This document shows positions 11,854-25,842 of a stretch of DNA of 64,000 nucleotides, piece after piece. Each line of letters opens with the position of its first letter. Within the stretch, counting starts at the first letter, position 1. The stretch covers positions 1 through 64,000 of the forward strand of contig JAJZMC010000001.1 of assembly GCA_021803105.1 (NCBI GenBank), read 5' to 3'. Under the pieces are notes generated by a model. It ran no database searches. It worked only from the letters and a program-made list of their open reading frames with translations, and had not been told where the DNA came from. A program made the position numbers and the translations under genes. The stretch comes from a bacterium (GTDB lineage: Bacteria > Patescibacteriota > Saccharimonadia > Saccharimonadales > UBA4665).

Positions 11854-12291
11854 TTAACCGTTTGTGGCTGCACCAGCAGCAGTGTTAATAACGTAATGAA
11901 CTATTACTTGGGCTAAAAGTACTATAATAAGACCGACAATGGCGTAAATTAAGGTGTTTTTTGCTCCTCCAACTTTATTTGAATCACCACCAGAGGTAAT
12001 ATACCTAAAGCCAGCGAATATAACCATAATTACAGCTATAATTCCTACTATAATTGAAAAAATATTTACAATTTGAGAAGCTAAACTACTAATATTAGTA
12101 CTTAATCCATTTTGTGGTTGACCACAACTCGAACTATTTGTACCAGTTGCATTATTTACTCCTGTACACAAACTTTGAGTAATAGTAGAAGATGCTAATG
12201 CTGTAGCAGCTAAAGCTGGCACGAAACCGGGAGCCATAATTCCTAAACTTATTACTGATAATAATACTAACCTTTTAATTTTTGCTATCAT
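11854..12291 (-). CDS. VirB2-like type IV secretion pilin, paralogue 6
   Basis: 145 residues. A signal-type N-terminal helix (about 6-32) is followed by a short Ser/Asn-rich segment with two Cys (LCTG, SCGQ). Two hydrophobic helices flank the family loop 'AGFRYITSGGDSNKVGGAKNTL' (given in two parts here: AGFRYITSGGD and SNKVGGAKNTL). This is the T4SS_pilin fold found widely in CPR genomes. It should be inserted in the cytoplasmic membrane and assembled by the neighbouring secretion genes. It is last in the array, 72 nt after paralogue 5, and shares 33 identical nt with it. Confidence 0.88.
   Translation of the reverse strand: MIAKIKRLVLLSVISLGIMAPGFVPALAATALASSTITQSLCTGVNNATGTNSSSCGQPQNGLSTNISSLASQIVNIFSIIVGIIAVIMVIFAGFRYITSGGDSNKVGGAKNTLIYAIVGLIIVLLAQVIVHYVINTAAGAATNG
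11997..12029. repeat. 33-nt stretch identical to 12486-12518 (pilin paralogues 6 and 5)
   Basis: The DNA coding the AGFRY-region helix of paralogue 6 is identical over 33 nt to the same region of paralogue 5. Flanking sequence is diverged, which suggests local gene conversion. Confidence 0.85.
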
Positions 12292-12363
12292 TTTAACCTT
12301 TCATTAAGCTTTAGTTAATTTATACTACAAAACCACTCATAAAATCAACACCTCTTTAAAAAA

Positions 12364-12753
12364 CTATGTAGAAGTTATAACAAAATGTACAATTACTTGG
12401 GCTAAAATTATAATTACTATACCGACAATGGCGTAAAGTAAAGTGTTTTTTGCTGAATTTACCTTATTAGCATCACCCGCAGAACTAATATACCTAAAGC
12501 CAGCGAATATAACCATAAACAAAACTATAACTCCAGCAATGTAAGATAAAATATTAATAACTGAGGCGACTAAACCGCCAGAACTCGTCAAATTTTTGCC
12601 AGAACAACTACTACCAAGTTCATTTGCACCTTTTAATGCTAGGTTAGTTGACGGACTATTATTGTTGCTACAAGCTAACACTAAAGAACTATTAGCTTGC
12701 AACAAACTAATACTAACTACAAATATAGATAATGTTAATATAAATAATCTCAA
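12364..12753 (-). CDS. VirB2-like type IV secretion pilin, paralogue 5
   Basis: 129 residues: an N-terminal signal-type helix, a Cys-containing polar segment (LACSNN, SSCSGK), then two helices around 'AGFRYISSAGDANKVNSAK'. The family motif is R/K-Y-x-x-S-x-G-D-x-x-K. It lies 4 nt after paralogue 4 in the same transcript. Its 3' half is nearly identical at DNA level to paralogue 4 and its middle to paralogue 6, so it is a mosaic. Confidence 0.88.
   Translation of the reverse strand: MRLFILTLSIFVVSISLLQANSSLVLACSNNNSPSTNLALKGANELGSSCSGKNLTSSGGLVASVINILSYIAGVIVLFMVIFAGFRYISSAGDANKVNSAKNTLLYAIVGIVIIILAQVIVHFVITST
12421..12483. repeat. 63-nt stretch identical to 12821-12883 (pilin paralogues 5 and 4)
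   Basis: Both copies code for the GDANKVNSAKNTLLYAIVG region. The 63 nt match exactly with an offset of 400 bp, while sequence on either side differs. This is consistent with recent duplication or gene conversion. Confidence 0.9.
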
Positions 12754-12757
12754 TTTT

Positions 12758-13159
12758 TTATCCTTTTAGATGATTAACTACATAGCCCACTATAGTATAT
12801 GTGGCGACAATAACTATAAGACCGACAATGGCGTAAAGTAAAGTGTTTTTTGCTGAATTTACCTTATTAGCATCACCCGCAGAGACAGCATATTTAATAC
12901 CAGAAATTATTATTATAACTACCGCCACTATACCTGCAACCTCAACAATTATTTTAACAATATTTCCTATCTGAACCGATATAGGATTAGTGTTTGATTG
13001 AGTCGAACTACTACTTGAAGGATTAGAACTACAAACAGCTGAAGAAGCAGCATTATTATTACAAACATTATTATAATTAAATGTGCCAGCTACAGCTAAA
13101 TCAGTTAATGACATCATAAAAATAAATAAACTTACTAAAAATATCGCTAATTTTCTCAT
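12758..13159 (-). CDS. VirB2-like type IV secretion pilin, paralogue 4
   Basis: 133 residues: a signal-type N-terminal helix (about 5-24), a Ser/Asn-rich spacer with two Cys, and two helices around 'SGIKYAVSAGDANKVNSAK'. Its start overlaps the stop of paralogue 3 by 4 nt (ATGA), so translation is coupled. It shares 63 identical nt with paralogue 5. The membrane pilin role is inferred from the family and the adjacent VirB4 operon. Confidence 0.88.
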   Translation of the reverse strand: MRKLAIFLVSLFIFMMSLTDLAVAGTFNYNNVCNNNAASSAVCSSNPSSSSSTQSNTNPISVQIGNIVKIIVEVAGIVAVVIIIISGIKYAVSAGDANKVNSAKNTLLYAIVGLIVIVATYTIVGYVVNHLKG

Positions 13160-13476
13160 TTCACGCTTCCTAAAACAAAAGCAACAATTGCTTCTGCTGA
13201 TATTGCAACAGCTAAACCAATTAGAGAATATAAGATTCCATCTTTAGCTTTAGTTACTTTTTGAGGATCACCACCAGAAACAATATACCTTACTCCTGAA
13301 ATTATTATAGATAATACAGCCAGTGAACCAATAATTCCAAAAACTATACTAAGTATCGTTTGAATTTCAGAACTAGAAGCAAGTGAAGTTGGACTATTTG
13401 CTCCAGGAAGAGAATTAGTACAAATATTATTACTACTATTGCATACAGTCGCTAAAACTTTATCTAGTATTATCAT
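13156..13476 (-). CDS. VirB2-like type IV secretion pilin, paralogue 3
   Basis: 106 residues, the shortest of the six. It lacks a clear cleavable signal helix: the start is 'MIILDKVLATVC'. After a polar stretch with two Cys (TVCN, NICT) come two helices around 'SGVRYIVSGGDPQKVTKAK'. It lies 7 nt after paralogue 2 and overlaps paralogue 4 by 4 nt. The missing leader peptide may mean a different insertion route or function from the others. Confidence 0.85.
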   Translation of the reverse strand: MIILDKVLATVCNSSNNICTNSLPGANSPTSLASSSEIQTILSIVFGIIGSLAVLSIIISGVRYIVSGGDPQKVTKAKDGILYSLIGLAVAISAEAIVAFVLGSVK

Positions 13477-13483
13477 AATTTCA

Positions 13484-14029
13484 TTATTTTATTAAATTAT
13501 TACCTATATAGGTTACTATTGCAATTGCACTAACTGCAATTATAAGTCCTACTAAAGCATAAAGGATTGTGCTTTGAGCCTTAGCTGAATTTTCTGGGTT
13601 ACCTTGACTGGTAACATAACGAAAAGCTGCAAATATAATAAAACCAACAGAAACTAATCCAGCAACACGTAATAAGTCATCAATAATAGCTAGAATTACT
13701 AATGGAATATCACTATTTGTGCTTTTACCACATCCGGTGCTATTAGGGGGATTGATAGATGATTTATTTCCTATAAAATTAAAACATATGCCACATTTGC
13801 TAACAGAACCCGTCTTAACTTTATAAGTATTAAGAAAGTAATACCACGGCTCTAAGCCAAAAAATGATGATGATTGGCAAAGCGACTTATTACTGGCTTG
13901 ACTAGTATTAAAAGTAGCTATAACCTTTGGCGCAATTGAATCGGCTGACGATATTTTCATTCCAAAAAATATTACAATTACTGTAAAAAAAAAGGTACTT
14001 ATTAACAATTTGTAAGAATTTTTTTTCAT
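13484..14029 (-). CDS. VirB2-like type IV secretion pilin, paralogue 2
   Basis: 181 residues, the longest. The N-terminal helix is at about 8-28. A central domain of about 85 residues contains five Cys (SLCQ, KCGIC, GCGK included), then two helices flank 'AAFRYVTSQGNPENSAKAQ'. The motif is changed here: GN replaces GD, and the usual Lys before the second helix is moved. It sits 6 nt after paralogue 1. Confidence 0.84.
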   Translation of the reverse strand: MKKNSYKLLISTFFFTVIVIFFGMKISSADSIAPKVIATFNTSQASNKSLCQSSSFFGLEPWYYFLNTYKVKTGSVSKCGICFNFIGNKSSINPPNSTGCGKSTNSDIPLVILAIIDDLLRVAGLVSVGFIIFAAFRYVTSQGNPENSAKAQSTILYALVGLIIAVSAIAIVTYIGNNLIK

Positions 14030-14035
14030 TACATT

Positions 14036-14557
14036 TTACTTTGCTTGACTTAGCAAACCTCCAGGTATAATAAATTGTAAAAAGGCATAAAGAAAAATAT
14101 ATACTAAAAGAGCAAGTATCGAATTTATTATTCTAGACTTTGCTTTGGCAGTCTTTTGAGGATCACCGGCTGACGCTGAATATTGGATACCTCCCATAAT
14201 AATAGAACCAATGACAACTAAAACAACTATACCAGATAATAAATTTATAGCTGGGTTTATATAATTAGATAATAAACAATTGCTTGTAGTCACACAACCA
14301 TTATTAGTTGATGAACTAGTTGATGGGCAAGCGTTATTAGTAGTTGTTTGAGATGATGGACATAATAAACATAAGTTTTGATTTTGACCATTACAACTAG
14401 GACAAGTACCAGAAGATTGGCTACAATTATTTGCATTAATTGTAGTTGCTATAACAATAGGTTTATTAATTAATGAAAAACCACTAAAATACAATGCAAC
14501 CATTAACATTACCGCTAAAAAGATTGCTATTTTTTTTCTAAATCTATTTTTTTTCAT
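14036..14557 (-). CDS. VirB2-like type IV secretion pilin, paralogue 1, Cys-rich
   Basis: 173 residues. A signal-type helix (about 12-38) is followed by a low-complexity Ser/Thr/Asn segment with eight Cys, including CPSC and CLLC pairs. Two helices then flank 'GGIQYSASAGDPQKTAKAK'. The Cys pairs suggest disulfides or metal binding outside the membrane. It is the first gene of the pilin transcript and divergent from the secretion operon across a 117-bp region. Confidence 0.85.
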   Translation of the reverse strand: MKKNRFRKKIAIFLAVMLMVALYFSGFSLINKPIVIATTINANNCSQSSGTCPSCNGQNQNLCLLCPSSQTTTNNACPSTSSSTNNGCVTTSNCLLSNYINPAINLLSGIVVLVVIGSIIMGGIQYSASAGDPQKTAKAKSRIINSILALLVYIFLYAFLQFIIPGGLLSQAK

Positions 14558-14674: not shown

Positions 14675-16111
14675 ATGAAAAATAAAATAATAAGTTCTTT
14701 CTTCTTAACCATTTTAATGGTTTTTTTTGGTGTTGGCTTATTTCCAGTTTCTTCTAGTGCTACTTCTTCAATTACTATCGTTGATTATTCTTATGGACCA
14801 AAAGAAGAATCTATTCTTTATTCCACTGGTGGTAATAATGTCACGCAATATTCTCTTAATCGAAATCAAAAAACATGTTTACAAAATAATAATTCTAACA
14901 ATCACCCTGCATACTCTAATAACTCTAATAACATAACGGTGACATGTGGGACTAACGGGAATCCTGATACTATGACTCAAAGTTCTACTTTTGTAACATC
15001 TGCTCCTCAAACTATTGAACCAATATTTCCAGGAGCTATTGAAGGAAATTGGATTGATCACAGTACCTTATCTTTAGCTACATATATGAATTCCGGAATA
15101 ACTAGTCCACCAATAATCGGTCAATATTTTGATAACAAAATAGATTCCACTATGTCTTATCAATATCAAGGCAACTCTAGTGCTTGTTCCTCTCAAAGTC
15201 ATATTTTTTATAACAAATCTGTTAATACACCTAGTTACCAAAATGTATCTGTAAATGCTTCTAATTGGTATCTAGCATTATATAATACTGGAGGTATTAC
15301 AAACCAATCAAATAACCAAAGCTGTATAGAAACTATTGAACCAATTAATGCCTTTAGTAACACATCTAATTATAATGATTACTTCTCTTACACTAACTCT
15401 CAGACTATTTTTACTTCAGATAGAACAACAATGGCTTTTTCTTCTAGTACTCCTCAAAGTTTTAATACTGTTTATACTGCCAATCAAGCCTCTAACCCAG
15501 CTGATATAGTATGTAAAAGTACAATACAACCTAGTTATAAAAATGGAGCTATTACATCTGGGTGGCTTATTATCTCAGCTTCAGCAGGCGATGGTATTAA
15601 TAACGGAAACGGTAATCCTTTTACATCTGGGTGGCCAAATAATATACAAAACGCCACATTAGGAACAACTAGTGGTAACTGTAACAAATCTAATCCAATA
15701 AAAATTAATCTGTCAGATCCTACAATATCTGGTAAGCTTGCTTCACAACTCGCACCTACTAGTGCTAGTTCATCTTTAGGTGGTAGTAATACGGGTTCAT
15801 CAACCAGTAGTACACCAGCTCTTAGCTGTAACACTGGATTTAATCCATTAAATTATGTCTTATGTGCAATTGTCAAAGGATTAACTAGTTTAACTGTACA
15901 AGCTGATAATTTAATCAATAAATTACTCAATTTAGGTGTTTGTAATGGAAGTACATCAACCACACCCAATGCTATTTTCGGACAATGTAGTAATAATAAT
16001 GCTATATCGGCTGATTACTATACAGCTTGGAGTAGTTTTCGAAACATCGCATTAGGATTATTAGTGTTAATTGGTTTAATTATAATTATTGCTCAGGCAA
16101 TAAAAGGATAG
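14675..16111 (+). CDS. Secreted, membrane-anchored component of the type IV secretion-like operon
   Basis: 478 residues. A signal peptide (about 1-30, ending near SSATSS) is followed by a Ser/Asn/Thr-rich extracellular region with paired Cys. The C-terminal helix follows 'YYTAWSSFRNIALG' (about 450-475). That C-terminal block resembles the start of the conserved membrane core of CPR TrbL/VirB6-like proteins, whose remaining helices are encoded by the next gene 2 nt downstream. The protein may therefore be the extracellular half of a split TrbL/VirB6. A TAAAAT box ends 9 nt before the ATG. Confidence 0.75.
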   Translation: MKNKIISSFFLTILMVFFGVGLFPVSSSATSSITIVDYSYGPKEESILYSTGGNNVTQYSLNRNQKTCLQNNNSNNHPAYSNNSNNITVTCGTNGNPDTMTQSSTFVTSAPQTIEPIFPGAIEGNWIDHSTLSLATYMNSGITSPPIIGQYFDNKIDSTMSYQYQGNSSACSSQSHIFYNKSVNTPSYQNVSVNASNWYLALYNTGGITNQSNNQSCIETIEPINAFSNTSNYNDYFSYTNSQTIFTSDRTTMAFSSSTPQSFNTVYTANQASNPADIVCKSTIQPSYKNGAITSGWLIISASAGDGINNGNGNPFTSGWPNNIQNATLGTTSGNCNKSNPIKINLSDPTISGKLASQLAPTSASSSLGGSNTGSSTSSTPALSCNTGFNPLNYVLCAIVKGLTSLTVQADNLINKLLNLGVCNGSTSTTPNAIFGQCSNNNAISADYYTAWSSFRNIALGLLVLIGLIIIIAQAIKG

Positions 16112-16113
16112 CT

Positions 16114-18024
16114 ATGTTAGACGCCTATACTTTAAGAAAAACCATTCCAAGGTTAGTTGTTGCAGCAATACTAATATCAATTTCATGGCCTCTGCTATCA
16201 TTTGCAGTCCAATTATCTAATGATTTAGGTAATGGAGTTGTTTATTTAATAGAAAGTCCGTTTAATCAACTTCCAGATATTGTGCATTTTGGAAATGTAG
16301 TGTTTGATCTTTTATCTGCTGGCGCCATATTAGCTCTTGGAATTATTGGTTTATTAAGTTTTGTTCTCACGGGAGCTATAGCCATATTTGTAGCAATTAT
16401 TACCTTAATAGTACGACAAATCTTAGTTATTGCTCTTTTAATTATTTCGCCTATAGCAATTGTTGCTTATGTTCTTCCTAATACTGAAAAAATATTTAAA
16501 TTATGGCGAAGTTCATTTATTAGTGTTTTAATTGCTTTTCCTATTATTTCAATGTTTATAGCTACAGGAAGAGTATTTTCAGCTATCGCAGCCAACAATG
16601 ATGGCCAAAACCCAGTTAATCAAATTATTGCTTTTATTGCTTATTTTGCACCATATTTTATGTTACCTTTAGCTTTTAAACTATCGGGTGGCATCATGGG
16701 TAGTGTGGCTGGCGTAATAAATAACAGAGCTGGTGGAGTTCAAAAAATGTTATCAGCATACCGTGGTAATAGAACAAAAGAAAACCTAATGAAAATTAAA
16801 TCAGGAGAACGATTTTCAAACAGAAACGGAGTTTCAAGAACATTCAATAGACTTTCTGAAAATATTGGTCTTGGTAGTAAAGGACATTTTGGAGTTGGAA
16901 GACAAGGTCAACAATCACGTGCTTTAAATAGAACAATTAATGCCAGAAATAGATTAAAATCAAATGAACAACTTCAACAACTTGCCTTTGATGATAATGC
17001 TAATGGTTTATTAGCATTAAGTGGTGGTTCGGAAGAAGGAGCTAGAAATGTTGCAAATACCCTCGGACTCACTACCGATGAAACTAATCGATCAATAGCA
17101 GCCATTAAAGCCTCTGGAGGTTTTACATACGCAAGTGCAACTGCAGCCCTTCAAACAATGGCTCAAAATAAGAGCCGAATACTAAAAGGAGCTTTTAGTG
17201 GACCCCAAGGCACAAATTTACTAAGAACATCAATGAACAGCTTAGCTAATGGTAATACTACTCTAAGCGACAATCTAATGAATACTTTTCAATTCGATTC
17301 TAGAAATGCCGGTAGAGTTGACCTGGGTGGAGATCCACTTGACGTTGGATGGACTAAAACATCAACCGGACATCATGCTCAATCCGATGTAAATTCAATG
17401 GAAGCTTTTGCCAACCATTTCACAACAATGTTCCAAACATCTGCCCCCGGAACTATTGAAAAAAAACGTGCAACACTTGCATTAATGGAAATGCAGAGTA
17501 TGTTACCGAACTCAACAGAAGGTAATCAAGTTATAATTAATAAAGCACTTGAAAAAGTTGGAGTTGATCACCACAAACCCGAAACAACCGAAACTCAACT
17601 TACACAATTAGCAAACGATCCTGATATTAACGAAAACTGGATTCGTGGCAATGCACGAGTTTACGACAGTACCGTACCTTATGGTAGTCAAAATCCATCG
17701 GGTCAACAAAGCCAACAAAGTCAAAATCCATCGGGTCAACAAGGTCCAGGCGGAACAATTTTACCCTCAGATTTACGTCTTAAAAAAGATATTCATTATC
17801 TAAAAACAACTACATCTGGATTAAAGTTATACACATTCAAATATATTTGGAGCAATACAGTTTATGTTGGAGTAATAGCTCAAGATATTATCAAAACTCA
17901 CCCAAATGCAATTACTATTGATATAAATGGCTATTATTTGGTTAATTATAAATTGCTCGGTATAAATATGTGTACTTATAATGATTGGTTGAAAATTAAT
18001 AAAAAACCCATATATCGTGTTTAG
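16114..18024 (+). CDS. TrbL/VirB6-like membrane protein with C-terminal peptidase S74 chaperone domain
   Basis: 636 residues. About five membrane helices (residues 10-205) begin with 'LRKTIPRLVVAAILISISW', typical of the inner-membrane core of CPR type IV systems. A long polar cytoplasmic or exported region (210-545) ends in a Q/S/G linker with repeated QNPSGQQ. From residue 552 comes a domain matching the intramolecular chaperone of phage endosialidases: SDLRLKKDI, TFKY, GVIAQDI, HPNAI, GYYLVNY. Ser552 and Lys557 match the self-cleaving Ser-Lys dyad spacing, so the last 85 residues may be released autocatalytically. It lies 2 nt after the preceding gene. Confidence 0.85.
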   Translation: MLDAYTLRKTIPRLVVAAILISISWPLLSFAVQLSNDLGNGVVYLIESPFNQLPDIVHFGNVVFDLLSAGAILALGIIGLLSFVLTGAIAIFVAIITLIVRQILVIALLIISPIAIVAYVLPNTEKIFKLWRSSFISVLIAFPIISMFIATGRVFSAIAANNDGQNPVNQIIAFIAYFAPYFMLPLAFKLSGGIMGSVAGVINNRAGGVQKMLSAYRGNRTKENLMKIKSGERFSNRNGVSRTFNRLSENIGLGSKGHFGVGRQGQQSRALNRTINARNRLKSNEQLQQLAFDDNANGLLALSGGSEEGARNVANTLGLTTDETNRSIAAIKASGGFTYASATAALQTMAQNKSRILKGAFSGPQGTNLLRTSMNSLANGNTTLSDNLMNTFQFDSRNAGRVDLGGDPLDVGWTKTSTGHHAQSDVNSMEAFANHFTTMFQTSAPGTIEKKRATLALMEMQSMLPNSTEGNQVIINKALEKVGVDHHKPETTETQLTQLANDPDINENWIRGNARVYDSTVPYGSQNPSGQQSQQSQNPSGQQGPGGTILPSDLRLKKDIHYLKTTTSGLKLYTFKYIWSNTVYVGVIAQDIIKTHPNAITIDINGYYLVNYKLLGINMCTYNDWLKINKKPIYRV

Positions 18025-19002: not shown

Positions 19003-19025
19003 ATCATTAATCTAGGGTGGAAAAT

Positions 19026-19895
19026 ATGTATCCTAACACAGATCAAAACAATATAACTTCATCATCAAACAATAGTCCAGGTCATCAAGTTATACCCTCA
19101 ACTCAAACAAACCAAACAACATTAAACTCTAATGTGCCACAAATTACTGTTAAAAATACATCTAACCCTAATAGTACCCAAAACAGTTTACAGATTGCCG
19201 AAATAAGGGATGGGATTGTTATTATGAATGATGGTTCGTTTAGATCTGTTGTTATGGTTAAAAGTATTAATTTTGATTTAATGAGCCAAGAAGAGCAAGA
19301 AGCAGTTGAATTTAGTTATCAAGGGTTTTTAAACTCTCTTTATTTTCCAATTCAAATATTTGTTCATTCTCAAAAAATTGATCTTAAGCCTTATATAGAT
19401 AAGCTAGATAAAATACGCCTGGAACACGATAATATGTTACTAGCGCTTATTATGGCTGACTATTTAGATTTTATAGATAATTTAAGTGCTCAAGCCAATA
19501 TTATGGATAAATTATTTTATATCGTTATTCCATATTTTCCGATAGATGAAGTCCAAAAAGCTATTTCTCAAAGCAAAAACTTTCTAACGGGTCTAACTCA
19601 AATTTTTTCACCAAGCAAAGAAGAACATATCATTATTAACGAAGCAGACTTAGATAAAGCTAAAACCGAACTAAGAAACCGCGTACAAGCAGTTTTAGCC
19701 GGTTTAACTCAATGCGGTATTCAAGGACTACCACTAGACACCCAAGAATTAATCGAACTGTACTATGATGTTTATAACCCTGACACATCCACTAGACAAC
19801 AACTTAATAATTTTAACAGTCTAACGGCTGATATTATAACTAAAGGTACTGGATCTGTTGTGCAGTCTCATTTAAAAAGAGAGTTAGAAAATTAA
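19026..19895 (+). CDS. TraC-like domain protein, VirB4 partner
   Basis: 289 residues from the ATG at 19026; a GTG at 19017 would add three residues. A polar N-terminal tail (1-55) precedes an alpha/beta domain with 'EIRDGIVIMNDGSFRSVV' and 'QIFVHSQKIDLKPYIDKL', resembling the N-terminal domain of TraC/VirB4 proteins without the ATPase part. A block of CPR systems carries this as a separate gene before VirB4. A GGTGG sequence spaced 5 nt favours the ATG start. The exact role is unknown; assembly with VirB4 is inferred. Confidence 0.75.
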   Translation: MYPNTDQNNITSSSNNSPGHQVIPSTQTNQTTLNSNVPQITVKNTSNPNSTQNSLQIAEIRDGIVIMNDGSFRSVVMVKSINFDLMSQEEQEAVEFSYQGFLNSLYFPIQIFVHSQKIDLKPYIDKLDKIRLEHDNMLLALIMADYLDFIDNLSAQANIMDKLFYIVIPYFPIDEVQKAISQSKNFLTGLTQIFSPSKEEHIIINEADLDKAKTELRNRVQAVLAGLTQCGIQGLPLDTQELIELYYDVYNPDTSTRQQLNNFNSLTADIITKGTGSVVQSHLKRELEN

Positions 19896-19922
19896 TTGAT
19901 ATGAAATCTAAAGGAAAAATAC

Positions 19923-21806
19923 GTGTTTAAAAAGAAAAAACCAATTAGTCCAGTTAATATAGCTCAGCAGCAGCAGGCTATTGAACAACAAGAAGTTCAA
20001 TCTGCTTTTCAAAAGGGTATTACTGCATTACGAGACTTTATAGCTCCTAGTTCTATAGAGTATAGCTCAACTTATTTCCAAATCGGTACTAGGTTTGCTA
20101 GAACCTACTATGTTTATGGTTATCCAAGACAAATATATACTGGCTGGCTAAGTAGTATGATTAATCTTGATGAAATAATGGATATGTCTATTTATGTTTA
20201 TCCTGTTAACAGTCAGGTGGTTTTAGAAAATCTCCGAAAAAAAGTTACACAACTAGAAGCAGGTATTCAAATTGATTCAGAAAAAGGGCGGATTCGTGAT
20301 CCTGCAAAACAGGCCGCTATTTTAGATGCTGAAGAAATCAGAGATAAACTACAAGTTGGCGAAGAAAAGTTTTTTAGATTTGGATTATATTTTACAGTTT
20401 ATGGTTTCTCTAAAGAAGAATTAGAGTTTGTTTCTCACAAAGTAGAATCAATGCTTGGTCAACAACTAATTTATTCTAAACCAGCTACCTCTCAACAAGA
20501 ACAAGGCTTTAATAGCACCTTACCTCAAATGGTTGATCAATTACAAATAAGAAGAAATCTAAGTACTGGAGCACTTAGTACTAGCTTTCCGTTTACTAGT
20601 GCCGATTTGACACAAGAAAATGGTATTTTGTATGGAATTAATATGCATAATTCAGGCTTAGTTATTTTTGATAGATTTTCTTTAGAAAACAGTAATTCAG
20701 TTGTTTTTGCTAAGTCTGGAGCCGGAAAATCATTTACTGTAAAGCTTGAAGCTTTAAGAAGTATGATGTTTGGTACTGAAATAATGATTATTGATCCAGA
20801 AAATGAATACCAAAAAATGTGTGATGCCGTAGGTGGTGCTTATGTAAGATTAAGTCTTAATTCATCAACTCGAATTAACCCATTTGATTTACCAAAAGTA
20901 ATTGATACCGAAGAAGCCGATAATGCTCTCAGAGGAAACTTGGTTACCCTACATGGTTTACTAAGACTTATGATGGGTGGAGCACAAAATCAAATGATCG
21001 GTGGCACAACAACTCTAGTACCAGCACTAAATCCAATCGAAGAATCAGACTTAGATAGTGCCTTAATTGAAACCTATTCTAAAGCTGGTATTACAAACGA
21101 CCCATTCACTCATAACGTTACACCACCGACTATTTATGATCTTTACGATACTTTACTACATATGGGTGGAACAGGCCCTCAGCTTGCTCAAAGATTAAGA
21201 AAATATACTACTGGTACTTTTGCTGGAATTTTTTCTCAACAATCTAATATTGAAATAAACAATCCATTAGTTGTTTTTAATATTAGAGATCTAGAAGATG
21301 AACTAAGACCAGTTGCTATGTATATTATCCTAAATTATATTTGGAATAAAACTAAGACTGATCAAAAAAAACGTCTTTTAATTGTTGATGAGGCTTGGCA
21401 GTTAATGAAATACGAGGACTCAGCAAACTTTTTATTCTCACTCGCTAAACGAGCTAGAAAATATAATCTTGGTATTACAACAATTTCACAAGATGTAGAA
21501 GATTTTATTGGTTCACAAATGGGACGAGCTATTGTTGCTAACGCCAGTATGCAGATTTTACTAAAACAATCTCCAACAGCAGTAGATATGTTAGCAAACG
21601 TGTTTAAACTTACTTCTGAAGAGAAAAAAAGGTTAAGTCAATTTCCAATCGGACAAGGACTATTTTTTGCTGGACAAAATCATGTTCATATTCAAATAGT
21701 TGCTAGTCAAACGGAAACCGATTTAATATCTACTACACCAACAGCGAATCCTAACTATATTAATATCAACCAACCAAATCAAACAATCAATCTAAACAAT
21801 GGTTGA
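19923..21806 (+). CDS. VirB4/TraC-type secretion ATPase
   Basis: 627 residues from a GTG start preceded by AAAGG. The N-terminal domain (about 30-230) is followed by a HerA/FtsK-type ATPase core: Walker A FAKSGAGKS near residues 262-270, Walker B RLLIVDEAWQLM near 486-497, and the later 'TISQDVEDF' motif. VirB4 ATPases energise pilus assembly and substrate transfer at the cytoplasmic face of the inner membrane. It is the only secretion ATPase in the window; no VirD4 or VirB11 partner is present. Confidence 0.93.
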   Translation: MFKKKKPISPVNIAQQQQAIEQQEVQSAFQKGITALRDFIAPSSIEYSSTYFQIGTRFARTYYVYGYPRQIYTGWLSSMINLDEIMDMSIYVYPVNSQVVLENLRKKVTQLEAGIQIDSEKGRIRDPAKQAAILDAEEIRDKLQVGEEKFFRFGLYFTVYGFSKEELEFVSHKVESMLGQQLIYSKPATSQQEQGFNSTLPQMVDQLQIRRNLSTGALSTSFPFTSADLTQENGILYGINMHNSGLVIFDRFSLENSNSVVFAKSGAGKSFTVKLEALRSMMFGTEIMIIDPENEYQKMCDAVGGAYVRLSLNSSTRINPFDLPKVIDTEEADNALRGNLVTLHGLLRLMMGGAQNQMIGGTTTLVPALNPIEESDLDSALIETYSKAGITNDPFTHNVTPPTIYDLYDTLLHMGGTGPQLAQRLRKYTTGTFAGIFSQQSNIEINNPLVVFNIRDLEDELRPVAMYIILNYIWNKTKTDQKKRLLIVDEAWQLMKYEDSANFLFSLAKRARKYNLGITTISQDVEDFIGSQMGRAIVANASMQILLKQSPTAVDMLANVFKLTSEEKKRLSQFPIGQGLFFAGQNHVHIQIVASQTETDLISTTPTANPNYININQPNQTINLNNG

Positions 21807-21838: not shown

Positions 21839-24475
21839 ATGGTAGTTATGTTAGACGACGAAACAAAAAAAGAAGAACCAGAAAGTTTATATAAACCTGA
21901 AAAAAAAACTACAGGTCTTAAATCAAATTTAAAACGACTAACCAAACATAAGCTTCTACTATTTGGTGTTGGAGGCACAGCTAGTGGTGGTATTATCGGC
22001 ATAGGTATAATTATTTTTTTAGCATCATCTCTTTCTTTAACAAATTTAACACAAGTTATTGAAAGCTATGCGTTTGCTTCAACAACTAGATATTTTACAA
22101 ATATGGCTACTAATGTTACTGATCAAAATCTTGCGGTTAGTGCTGCTCCTAGTGCTGCTCCTAATACATTACTAGGAGAAACAGCTGCAAATCCAGGTGG
22201 AATATATGGATCATTTAAAGATACCTACCAATCATTAATAGATAATACCTGGGGTAAATTGAATTCCATTCGACCACAAGCAATTATCGATAATTTAGGA
22301 CAAAATAATGGCTTAACACTTAACTATAAAACTACGGCTTTCGGACGAGAAATATTTACTGGTGCTACTTTAGATGGTGTTGATTATCCAGTTGCAGAAT
22401 TATCTGGTATTAGTAGTTACGTACCAATATTAAAAAACGTTATGAATGTTAAAAATTATGCTGATTTTTATGCAAAATTTCAACCAGCTGTGACTGGTGC
22501 TATGGATACCGCTGGTGTTAATGAAATATCTCAAGGTTTAGTTATGAGAGCTTTAATTAAATTAACTAACGGTAATTTAGGTGGATGGATTCTTAGTAAA
22601 TTTAATAAAACCCCTGAAACACCGAAAGAACTACCAGCTATTGAAGCCCAACAACTTGATGGTGACACTCAAAGTGGAAATTATAATCCGGTTACAGCTT
22701 CCGACAGCACAATAAATAAAGCAGCCAATGATGCTCAAAATGTTGCTAATCAAGATAGTTTAAATTTAAAAGCAGTTGAAGATACTTTGGCTAACAATGG
22801 TATTGATACTAATGTTCAAAATGTTATAAACAAAGATTTTTCAACTAGTTTATTAGGCAAAGTAGAAAATTTAGCTGCTGGATTTTTAGATCCAATCTTT
22901 AATCTAGCCATACCAGCTTGTATAGTCTATGATGGTTCAGTTGTACAATCTGGACCAACTATTAATAATCAAACAAACCAGCAACAAAATCTATTTGATG
23001 GTCTAGCTTCTCAGGCAGATGAACAAAAAGCTGGTGGACCGATTGGTAGCACATCCTCCAGCGGAGCTTTAGCTAATGCAGTTAGTGCAACTAATCAAAA
23101 TTTGGGTAATATATCTCAATCTGATGCTGAAATACTAGCTAACGGTGGATCAATAAACACAAGTTCTATTATAAGCCCAGAAGCCGGGGCGGGTGGATCA
23201 TATAATTATAGTATCTTAACAACTCTTGGAATTACTCCCACCAGTGTTAGTGGTAAGGTTATTACAGGAATATTTAATCAATGTCGCGTTTTAACCAGCC
23301 CAAAACTTGCTATCGGGGTTGGGGCAGCAACTTTAATATTTACAGATGGAGGCGATGCTTTCCTAACAGGCACCCTTAAAACATCCCTAGATAAGTTAAT
23401 GTCAGGTGATATAGCAGGCATAATCTCTGATATCAAAAGTTACTTAACCACCGAAACTATCACTACCTCTACTGAGGGTGGGATTAATGTAGCCACTTCA
23501 TCAACTGGTTTAAGTAGAAGTATGAAATTTATCGTTCACCAAGGTAAAATATTACTTGGTACAGCTGCTTTAACAGAAATAGCTCACTTAATAGTGGCCT
23601 CTCAGGCTGGTTTAATAAATAATGGTTTAGCCCAAGGCACCGATTTAAGTAATGAAGCATTGTCCGGTGCATTAATTCAAAGTAATAATATTAATCGTTC
23701 TCAAATGTTTGGTCGACCCCTAACTCAAACCGAAATGGCTCAAAACAGTCAGCAAAATTCCAAAGCTTTAGCTGATACTTTAAGTAAAAAAAGTGCTTTT
23801 AGTCGGTATGCTTCCTTATCTAATCCTTATTCTTTATTATCGAGACTAGCTGTAATGTCTAGTGGTTTAATTCATCTATCAAGTATCACGAATTTTATGA
23901 AACTTGCTGGTGATATATTAAATCCATTAAAAGCTTTCGGGACTATTTTTAGTGCTTTAGATCATTCAGTAGTATTAGCTGCAAACACAGCAAATCCGAT
24001 TAATAGTAACTTTGGGATTGTTGAATTTGGTTGGTCTAATTCTGAATTAAACTTAATTAATAGTAATTCTTCTTATGCTCCATTAGAAAATCAACAGATA
24101 TTAGATAATTCTGGAAAAGAAATCGCAATTGCAAAACAATATGCTACTTGTTTTGGTTATCAATATAATCCTAATGGGGACGGTTCTCTTGATCCAACCG
24201 ATCCAAATAGTAATATGCAGATTAGTACTAGTGGTTCTATAGGCACTCTTTTATCGACTGGAGCTATTATGAGAAACTCTCAAGGATATGTAATAAACAG
24301 TGGTTTATGTTCAAAATCACAATTAGGTGTTAATAATAAGACATATGGCGATTTAGTTTTTAGATGGCGACTTGCTATGGCCTATGACACAACAATGAAT
24401 CAACTCTGCCAAGAAAGTGTTGGACCTATTAATAACCCAGCATCAAATAAATGTAGTGGGGTATCTAAACCATGA
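21839..24475 (+). CDS. Large membrane-anchored protein of the secretion operon, unknown function
   Basis: 878 residues from 21839; an ATG at 21848 is an equally good start. A basic cytoplasmic N-terminus precedes a Gly/Ile-rich membrane helix (about 42-64). A large, mostly polar region follows, with further hydrophobic stretches near 490-510 and 570-590 and a Cys-containing C-terminal domain with 'YATCFGYQYNPNGDGSLDP' (key residues C and D). I recognise no catalytic motif. Its place between VirB4 and the muralytic enzyme, which overlaps it by 4 nt, suggests a structural part of the channel or surface complex. Confidence 0.75.
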   Translation: MVVMLDDETKKEEPESLYKPEKKTTGLKSNLKRLTKHKLLLFGVGGTASGGIIGIGIIIFLASSLSLTNLTQVIESYAFASTTRYFTNMATNVTDQNLAVSAAPSAAPNTLLGETAANPGGIYGSFKDTYQSLIDNTWGKLNSIRPQAIIDNLGQNNGLTLNYKTTAFGREIFTGATLDGVDYPVAELSGISSYVPILKNVMNVKNYADFYAKFQPAVTGAMDTAGVNEISQGLVMRALIKLTNGNLGGWILSKFNKTPETPKELPAIEAQQLDGDTQSGNYNPVTASDSTINKAANDAQNVANQDSLNLKAVEDTLANNGIDTNVQNVINKDFSTSLLGKVENLAAGFLDPIFNLAIPACIVYDGSVVQSGPTINNQTNQQQNLFDGLASQADEQKAGGPIGSTSSSGALANAVSATNQNLGNISQSDAEILANGGSINTSSIISPEAGAGGSYNYSILTTLGITPTSVSGKVITGIFNQCRVLTSPKLAIGVGAATLIFTDGGDAFLTGTLKTSLDKLMSGDIAGIISDIKSYLTTETITTSTEGGINVATSSTGLSRSMKFIVHQGKILLGTAALTEIAHLIVASQAGLINNGLAQGTDLSNEALSGALIQSNNINRSQMFGRPLTQTEMAQNSQQNSKALADTLSKKSAFSRYASLSNPYSLLSRLAVMSSGLIHLSSITNFMKLAGDILNPLKAFGTIFSALDHSVVLAANTANPINSNFGIVEFGWSNSELNLINSNSSYAPLENQQILDNSGKEIAIAKQYATCFGYQYNPNGDGSLDPTDPNSNMQISTSGSIGTLLSTGAIMRNSQGYVINSGLCSKSQLGVNNKTYGDLVFRWRLAMAYDTTMNQLCQESVGPINNPASNKCSGVSKP

Positions 24476-25842
24476 ATCTAAATTTTATAAGATATAACTT
24501 ATTAAAGATTATTAAATCTTTGTATAGATTAATGATCATAATATCTTTAATTGTTTTTATTATGGGTCAGGGTAATGCTTTTGCTTATACTTCTTCAGAA
24601 TTTAACGCTATACTCAATAATACTGGGTGGTATGATCCTAGTATTAGTAGTTGTATGAACACTTTAACATCTGTTGGAAGCAATTCTTTAGCATCAAATG
24701 CTTCTCAGATTGCTATTGCTAATGCTCAAATAATAATGGGTATTGATAAAACCTATCATTTAGGCAAAAACGGAGCTTTAATAGGTCTAATTGTCGGTTT
24801 AGATGAATCGGGTTTAGAAAATCACGCTAATAGTATGATTCCTGTATCAGAACTAAACCCCAATAAACAGGGGAGTGGTAGTGATATGGATTCTGTAGGA
24901 ATTTTTCAGCAAAGAGTAGCTTCCGGTTGGAGTACGCTCGCCCCAGCAGCTCCAGCTAATATTGAATCTAACGCCAGTTTATCTCAACAATATGCTAATT
25001 CATATCCAGCAGCCGTCAATCAATTAATGACACCTTCTTATGCAGCTGAAGCTTTTTATCATAGACTTAGTCAACTACCAAACTGGCAAAATATGTCACC
25101 ATGGGTTGCAGCTCAAACTATTCAAAGATCAAATATTAGTAACGGTAGCAACTATCAAGCTGAAGTTCCAAATGCTATAACTTTGATTAATAATTATTAT
25201 ACTGCGGCGCCAATAATTCCTTTGCCTGTCAATTTAACTATTCCTTCATCTAATATATCAATGACTTCTGGTTTTAATAGTAGTTTTATTTGTGGTGTTT
25301 CAGGTAGTGGTGTGGTTAACGGTAGTATTGTTCAAACAGCCATTGGTCTTTCATGGCCAAATAACACTCACGGTAACACACCAACCAGTAATTATACTGC
25401 TGCTATGGAACAATATAATAAAGCTGGTTATAGTGAAACCGCTGGTTTAGGGAATGACTGTGGTGTTTTTGTAGCAACTGTTATGAGAGCTAGTGGAGTT
25501 GATCCAAATTATCCTGTCTACAATACAGTAACTCAAGCCAATTATGTTATTAACCATCCTAATTTATATAAAGTAATTTATCCAGCAACTTCAACCTCTC
25601 AACTTCAACCAGGTGATATACTAATATTAAACACCGGTACTACTGAAAAAAATGGTGTGATCACAGTAGGTAAATATGGTGGCGGAGCTGGTGGTCATAC
25701 TTTTATTTATATTGGTCAACAAAGTAATGGTACTAATGAAGCTAGTGCGTCATTAGGTAGTCAATCTGCTGCTCTTGGTATAACTTACTTAAGCGATAGT
25801 CGAGGACAATACCTAATCGCAAGATATATAGGTCCATCATGA
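24472..25842 (+). CDS. Bifunctional peptidoglycan hydrolase (lysozyme-like plus CHAP/NlpC-P60-like)
   Basis: 456 residues. An N-terminal signal/anchor helix lies at about 18-39. A lysozyme/transglycosylase-like domain (about 80-240) has 'IGLIVGLDESGLENHA' with a plausible catalytic Glu and 'SVGIFQQRVASGW'. A C-terminal cysteine-peptidase domain (about 305-456) has Cys330 in GNDCGVF and His409 in GGHTFIYIG. Such enzymes open the cell wall for secretion machines, a VirB1-like role. ATGA overlaps on both sides couple it to its neighbours. Exact bond specificity is not readable. Confidence 0.86.
   Translation: MNLNFIRYNLLKIIKSLYRLMIIISLIVFIMGQGNAFAYTSSEFNAILNNTGWYDPSISSCMNTLTSVGSNSLASNASQIAIANAQIIMGIDKTYHLGKNGALIGLIVGLDESGLENHANSMIPVSELNPNKQGSGSDMDSVGIFQQRVASGWSTLAPAAPANIESNASLSQQYANSYPAAVNQLMTPSYAAEAFYHRLSQLPNWQNMSPWVAAQTIQRSNISNGSNYQAEVPNAITLINNYYTAAPIIPLPVNLTIPSSNISMTSGFNSSFICGVSGSGVVNGSIVQTAIGLSWPNNTHGNTPTSNYTAAMEQYNKAGYSETAGLGNDCGVFVATVMRASGVDPNYPVYNTVTQANYVINHPNLYKVIYPATSTSQLQPGDILILNTGTTEKNGVITVGKYGGGAGGHTFIYIGQQSNGTNEASASLGSQSAALGITYLSDSRGQYLIARYIGPS

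Follow-up and report, generated by a model that had tools for sequence, protein, structure and literature searches.

S74/ICA domains have been described at the C-termini of phage proteins such as endoNF, GA-1 gp12 and T5 pb1, where they stand on a trimeric beta-helix, and in the eukaryotic membrane-bound transcription factors MYRF and MrfA. MYRF is cleaved at a P-S junction; the cleavage requires trimerisation, which is driven mainly by a C-terminal coiled coil (PMC8326128, PMC3742443). On the side of type IV secretion, extended VirB6 proteins have a long hydrophilic tail behind a polytopic core, the role of their large extra domains is described in a review as not yet known, and a cultivated Saccharibacterium cannot survive without its T4SS (PMC12857230). 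In the solved structure of the R388 T4SS, VirB6 forms a pentamer (PMC9259494). A paper on the T4SS of Patescibacteria makes no mention of S74 (PMC12102498), and our search of the open-access literature returned nothing that joins the S74 domain with type IV secretion or Saccharibacteria with endosialidase. The S74 domain, VirB6 and self-processing are already known singly; what is new is their joint occurrence on one T4SS channel protein, with the domain in a short form that is free of the coil.

A split VirB6 with a terminal S74/ICA domain

The window, the whole stretch of 64,000 nucleotides that was analysed, contains a T4SS locus in which VirB6, the subunit of the channel or pilus platform, has VirB4, VirB3/PrgI and pilins as neighbours. 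The features that matter here are the following.

11854..14557 (-): six small genes of VirB2-like/T4SS_pilin type, transcribed divergently from VirB6
14675..16111 (+): N-terminal half of the split VirB6, with signal peptide, large extracytoplasmic part and first membrane helix
16102..16116 (+): coupling junction AAAAGGA-TAG-CT-ATG, with an RBS-like site and a stop beside the second start
16114..18024 (+): 636 aa, C-terminal half of the VirB6/TrbL protein (extended type), ending in a short S74/ICA domain
16114..16730 (+): VirB6/TrbL core, hydrophobic helices, residues 1-205
16731..17658 (+): hydrophilic C-terminal region of the extended VirB6, basic at first and then helical, residues 206-515
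17659..17766 (+): Q/S/G/P-rich repeated linker, predicted disordered, residues 516-551, last residue P551
17767..18021 (+): short-type S74/ICA domain, residues 552-636 (85 aa); the dyad and R555, F575, Y577, I588 and Q590 match mapped MYRF residues
18061..19002 (+): PrgI/VirB3-like protein, the next T4SS gene after VirB6
19017..21806 (+): VirB4, divided between two ORFs (292 aa and 627 aa, TraG P-loop)
24472..25842 (+): candidate VirB1-like cell-wall hydrolase, with a weak NlpC/P60 match only

Three of the six pilin-type genes were tested against Pfam, and all three match T4SS_pilin. The two-ORF form of VirB4 is also found in related loci across the order, wherever the examined locus contains VirB4.

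The 636-residue open frame had been read from its sequence as a TrbL/VirB6-like protein. Its T4SS neighbours and its several hydrophobic helices (residues ~14-188) bear out the proposed membrane helices in a VirB6/TrbL context, but the frame is not the complete protein: the N-terminal half is the preceding ORF (14675-16111), which has one hydrophobic helix, and the S74 finding thus applies to the second, C-terminal half of a VirB6 that is split. The TrbL profile matches residues 15-179 of this half at 22.0 bits, under its own cut-off of 25.9, and a same-genus orthologue clears that cut-off at 29.4 bits. The first ORF ends in its membrane helix, its TAG stands 2 bases ahead of the ATG at 16114, and AAAAGGA upstream of this second ATG is a possible ribosome-binding site. 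The split, which apparently falls in a loop between membrane helices, recurs in two further genomes of the genus (junction AAAAGG-TTAG-TT-ATG); most other relatives encode an undivided VirB6 of about 750-1190 aa. As in the described extended VirB6 proteins, a long hydrophilic tail follows a polytopic core; unlike them, the gene is split in two here and the tail ends in an S74 domain, which we found on none of them in the T4SS literature searched. A search of 99 genomes, among them that of the window, gave matches to the protein of ORF 16114-18024 in 75, and unfused VirB6 proteins often have a Gly/Pro-rich tail at their end. Residues 205-300 of the ORF carry a net charge of +12, and going by charge the C-terminus of VirB6 may be cytoplasmic; R388 VirB6 has only two membrane-anchoring helices, which makes this placement tentative.

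The S74 identity of the C-terminus, which had been proposed together with a Ser-Lys dyad, holds by profile search. Pfam Peptidase_S74 matches residues 552-599 above its curated cut-off (27.2 against 22 bits, E 4.8e-6), and PHROG phrog_6121, annotated as virion structural protein, matches residues 543-614 at 65.6 bits (E 1.1e-17). Ser552 and Lys557 are domain positions 1 and 6, at the spacing of the dyad; the GxxAQ core of S74/ICA is present as G586-V-I-A-Q590, and F575 and Y577, which align with MYRF positions, supply the aromatics of the cleavage hole. An S74/ICA homologue fused to VirB6 is thus confirmed. A profile of 86 aligned relatives, across which S, D, K, Y and G are invariant, matches the solved structure of the GA-1 neck appendage (3gud, E 7.3e-4), with profile position 1 aligned to residue 1 of the chain, and also a long-tail-fibre structure (6f45) and MYRF (7dc3). 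MYRF S587, R590, K592, Y615, Y617, I637 and Q639, which have been mapped as mattering (PMC8326128), align to S552, R555, K557, F575, Y577, I588 and Q590, respectively. A phmmer search with the whole protein against the PDB returned nothing, and only the alignment profile found these structures.

A monomer model of the 95-residue tail has a mean pLDDT of 85.4 and a pTM of 0.72, and in it the domain closes with a predicted helix of only 8 residues. The full-length model is weak (mean pLDDT 56.9); setting the membrane core aside, no region in it is predicted better than the tail, and the linker before the tail has a pLDDT of about 30. In these models the S74 domain is a separate globule, predicted with confidence, behind a linker of low confidence. 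The sequence-only reading had described this linker as an exposed, Q/S/G-rich and repeated segment before the site, and its composition (Q/S/G/P-rich), its repeated unit and its predicted disorder agree; P551 lies immediately before the predicted cleavage site. Foldseek with the monomer tail model found no solved structure in the PDB at E <= 0.001, which was not counted against homology because monomer models of intertwined trimers may mislead, and against the viral models of BFVD it matched phage ICA-domain models (E 2.8e-6, probability 1.0).

The ORF is one uninterrupted frame within a 106 kb contig, and the host genome of 810 kb contains one S74 domain. Recent import of the domain was also considered and was rejected on codon composition, GC3 being 17.6% in the S74 domain and 18.5% in the rest of the ORF.

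Recurrence and history of the fusion

The same fusion occurs in other genomes. When 393 genomes of the order were searched with a profile of the tail, 10 matched, and VirB6-S74 fusions were found at 8 loci in 7 of these 10 (the window, G069 with two loci, G074, G125, G145, G170 and G276), which span five families of the order (f1, f6, f12, f17 and f32). S552-D553 is invariant in all eight fusions aligned, and the tails of the fused proteins share 43-52% identity, where the aligned proteins as a whole share 24-32%. Nearly all the fused relatives retrieved by name belong to Candidatus Saccharibacteria, which would place the window in this group, their order being its own. Among 380 genomes over the phylum the best S74 loci outside the order are of fibre type only, without VirB6 fusion. 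The S74 domain is absent from the VirB6 of same-genus relatives and is thus dispensable for the T4SS as such. A misassembled phage gene, which had been named as a possible source of the tail, is excluded because the fusion recurs in other genomes.

Two of these loci have further peculiarities. In the G125 fusion (L069 6172-9231, minus strand; also L077), the S74 domain has an in-frame TGA for its third codon (TCA GAC TGA CGC); the domain is open after the TGA, and the contig title gives a coverage of 3.7, so that the TGA is possibly a sequencing error, a recent loss or a site of read-through. In G276 (L071), VirB6-S74 lies downstream of VirB4 instead of upstream of PrgI, and transposase-like ORFs are present in the T4SS locus.

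The fused VirB6 cores do not form one clade (rejected at p-AU 7.6e-39), and the fused/unfused label requires six changes on the VirB6 tree, at least four of these changes being forced by well-supported branches, whereas a single clade of S74 tails is not rejected (p-AU 0.41). The tails of G170 and G145 are sisters (support 97/92) and their VirB6 cores are not. The tail tree, with 85-90 columns, is poorly resolved; it was used only for the clade test and this one supported pair, and origin counts from it are therefore left aside. With cores that are not one clade and tails that possibly are, the tail is patchy and was probably exchanged as a module. The two T4SS loci with VirB6-S74 in G069 (L066 and L067) provide the one VirB6 pair in which selection could be tested, and purifying selection on the S74 tail is shown there (dN 0.037, dS 0.37, dN/dS about 0.10). 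In this pair synonymous changes are scarcer in the tail than in either the membrane core (Fisher p 0.012) or the C-terminal region (p 1.4e-6); because linker and S74 domain differ at fewer synonymous positions than the rest of the gene, gene conversion of a linker-S74 module between the two loci is suggested. Overall, the sequence comparisons are in keeping with a selected module, probably exchanged or converted as a unit between VirB6 lineages; ancient presence followed by many losses is a possible alternative history.

Possible roles of the tail

Our leading interpretation, which we hold at slightly less than an even chance, is that a linker-tethered, self-processing S74 tail trims VirB6 upon subunit assembly and does not serve as a trimeric-fibre chaperone. 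Assembly of VirB6 would gather several S74 tails together, the S74 domain would cut itself off between P551 and S552, the cut would release the 85-residue fragment and leave a trimmed VirB6, and cleavage would constitute an assembly-linked trimming or licensing step. The tail resembles the phage ICA domains in its dyad at residues 1 and 6, its SDxRLK...GxIAQ core, its C-terminal placement and the exposed site ahead of the Ser, and it resembles MYRF in that an S74 domain with conserved aligned active-site residues resides in a membrane protein, P551-S552 being the predicted counterpart of the MYRF cleavage site. On such sequence grounds, self-cleavage of the VirB6 tail is plausible, and the released fragment or the trimmed tail may matter to T4SS function. 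There are also differences. Where the phage domain stands on a trimeric beta-helix, the present copy is joined to a membrane T4SS protein via a disordered linker, and it comprises 85 residues without a C-terminal coiled coil; MYRF has a four-heptad coiled coil and trimerisation-dependent cleavage, whereas the S74 domain of VirB6 is the extreme C-terminus and has no coil. Since MYRF cleaves only as a trimer held by this coil, its absence counts against cleavage of the VirB6 tail, and the pentameric R388 VirB6, a symmetry mismatch with a trimeric ICA, was likewise counted against. The literature searched contains no demonstration of cleavage by a short-type S74 domain.

The generality of these features was assessed by scans for short S74 domains in the genomes of 84,980 species and in viral contigs, using patterns that excluded the Ser and Lys positions. 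Among dereplicated short copies from phages, Pseudomonadota and Saccharibacteria, the Ser is conserved in 97 of 99 and the Lys in 98 of 99. The A[I/V]xEL coiled-coil motif occurs in none of 107 short copies and in 33 of 49 long ones, and the fused copies that were measured run on for only 11-29 residues past their last conserved strand.

These data bear unequally on the other readings of the tail. The sequence-only reading had transferred to VirB6 the behaviour of phage tailspikes, in which the domain trimerises or chaperones its protein and afterwards detaches by self-cleavage; homology to ICA domains with this behaviour and the intact dyad speak for it, but the motif that is absent from every short copy, the few residues past the last conserved strand, the disordered linker in place of a beta-helical stalk and the pentamer of R388 (PMC9259494) all speak against it. 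With coiled coil and stalk missing and a pentamer in R388, a trimer chaperone is unlikely, and this part of the earlier proposal, to which we give little credence, is not supported. The missing coil, together with the confident monomer model (mean pLDDT 85.4), would suit instead a non-cleaving docking or capping module, a small stable fold that remains in place and has VirB4, the coupling protein, a substrate or an adjacent VirB6 as its binding partner, with Ser and Lys kept for folding and not for catalysis. Short S74 domains also end many unrelated exported proteins, as a general binding tag might; however, the near-invariance of Ser and Lys and the matches to the MYRF active site exceed any obvious structural need, and we consider docking possible, if on the unlikely side.

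A domain that merely hitchhikes on VirB6 tails, mobile, without a role in the T4SS and kept or lost near-neutrally, would accord with the patchy spread and the absence from same-genus relatives, with the strong rejection of a single clade of fused cores, with the sister tails of G170 and G145 on cores that are not sisters, and with the presence of the same domain on an unrelated reductase. It is made improbable by the purifying selection on the tail (dN/dS about 0.10), by tails more alike than the whole proteins and by a codon GC3 equal to that elsewhere in the gene. A misassembled contig, or read-through into the tail gene of a prophage, has in its favour that the S74 domain is phage-related, but independent fusions in seven genomes (one with two loci), a single open frame in a 106 kb contig and a genome without any second S74 domain leave it a negligible chance. 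If assembly-linked trimming is the true role, a recurrent self-processing module on VirB6 would be a concrete, directly testable step in T4SS assembly, and a secretion channel would join fibres and MYRF as a site of S74/ICA processing.

Short S74 domains on other proteins

The short S74 type ends phage virion proteins and many exported bacterial proteins. Like the VirB6 tail, the copies on phage virion and ejection proteins (phrog_6121 and phrog_4287) and on exported proteins of Pseudomonadota end soon after the V-x-Y strand, and an LGxxMxTxxxW tail is common to the bacterial short copies. Unlike the VirB6 tail, they are joined to virion proteins, to caspase-, FecR- or M12B-domain proteins, or to lipoproteins, and not to VirB6; bacterial partners also include proteins with a peptidoglycan-binding domain. 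The short type thus spans phages and bacteria. A broader proposal, which we regard as doubtful and offer as speculation, is that the S74 domain, in its compact form free of a coiled coil, serves widely in cells and phages as a C-terminal tag for self-processing, and that on the VirB6 of Saccharibacteria it would act as an assembly sensor that fires only once the subunits form the channel platform and so licenses the T4SS of the epibiont.

Several other arrangements of the short domain were observed. An FAD/NAD reductase with a terminal short S74 domain is encoded in two Saccharibacteria genomes (L074 741-2150 in G052 and L073 6498-7460 in G233), with a Pro/Thr- or Pro/Ser-rich linker before the domain and with ApbE-like and membrane genes adjoining. 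On the Rhizobium etli plasmid pRetNXC12c (L063 1077-4324), a caspase-family gene is followed by a lipoprotein-like gene with a terminal short S74 domain; matches occur in 72 plasmid records, of which Rhizobium accounts for 70. In L082, a caspase domain and an S74 domain occur within one protein.
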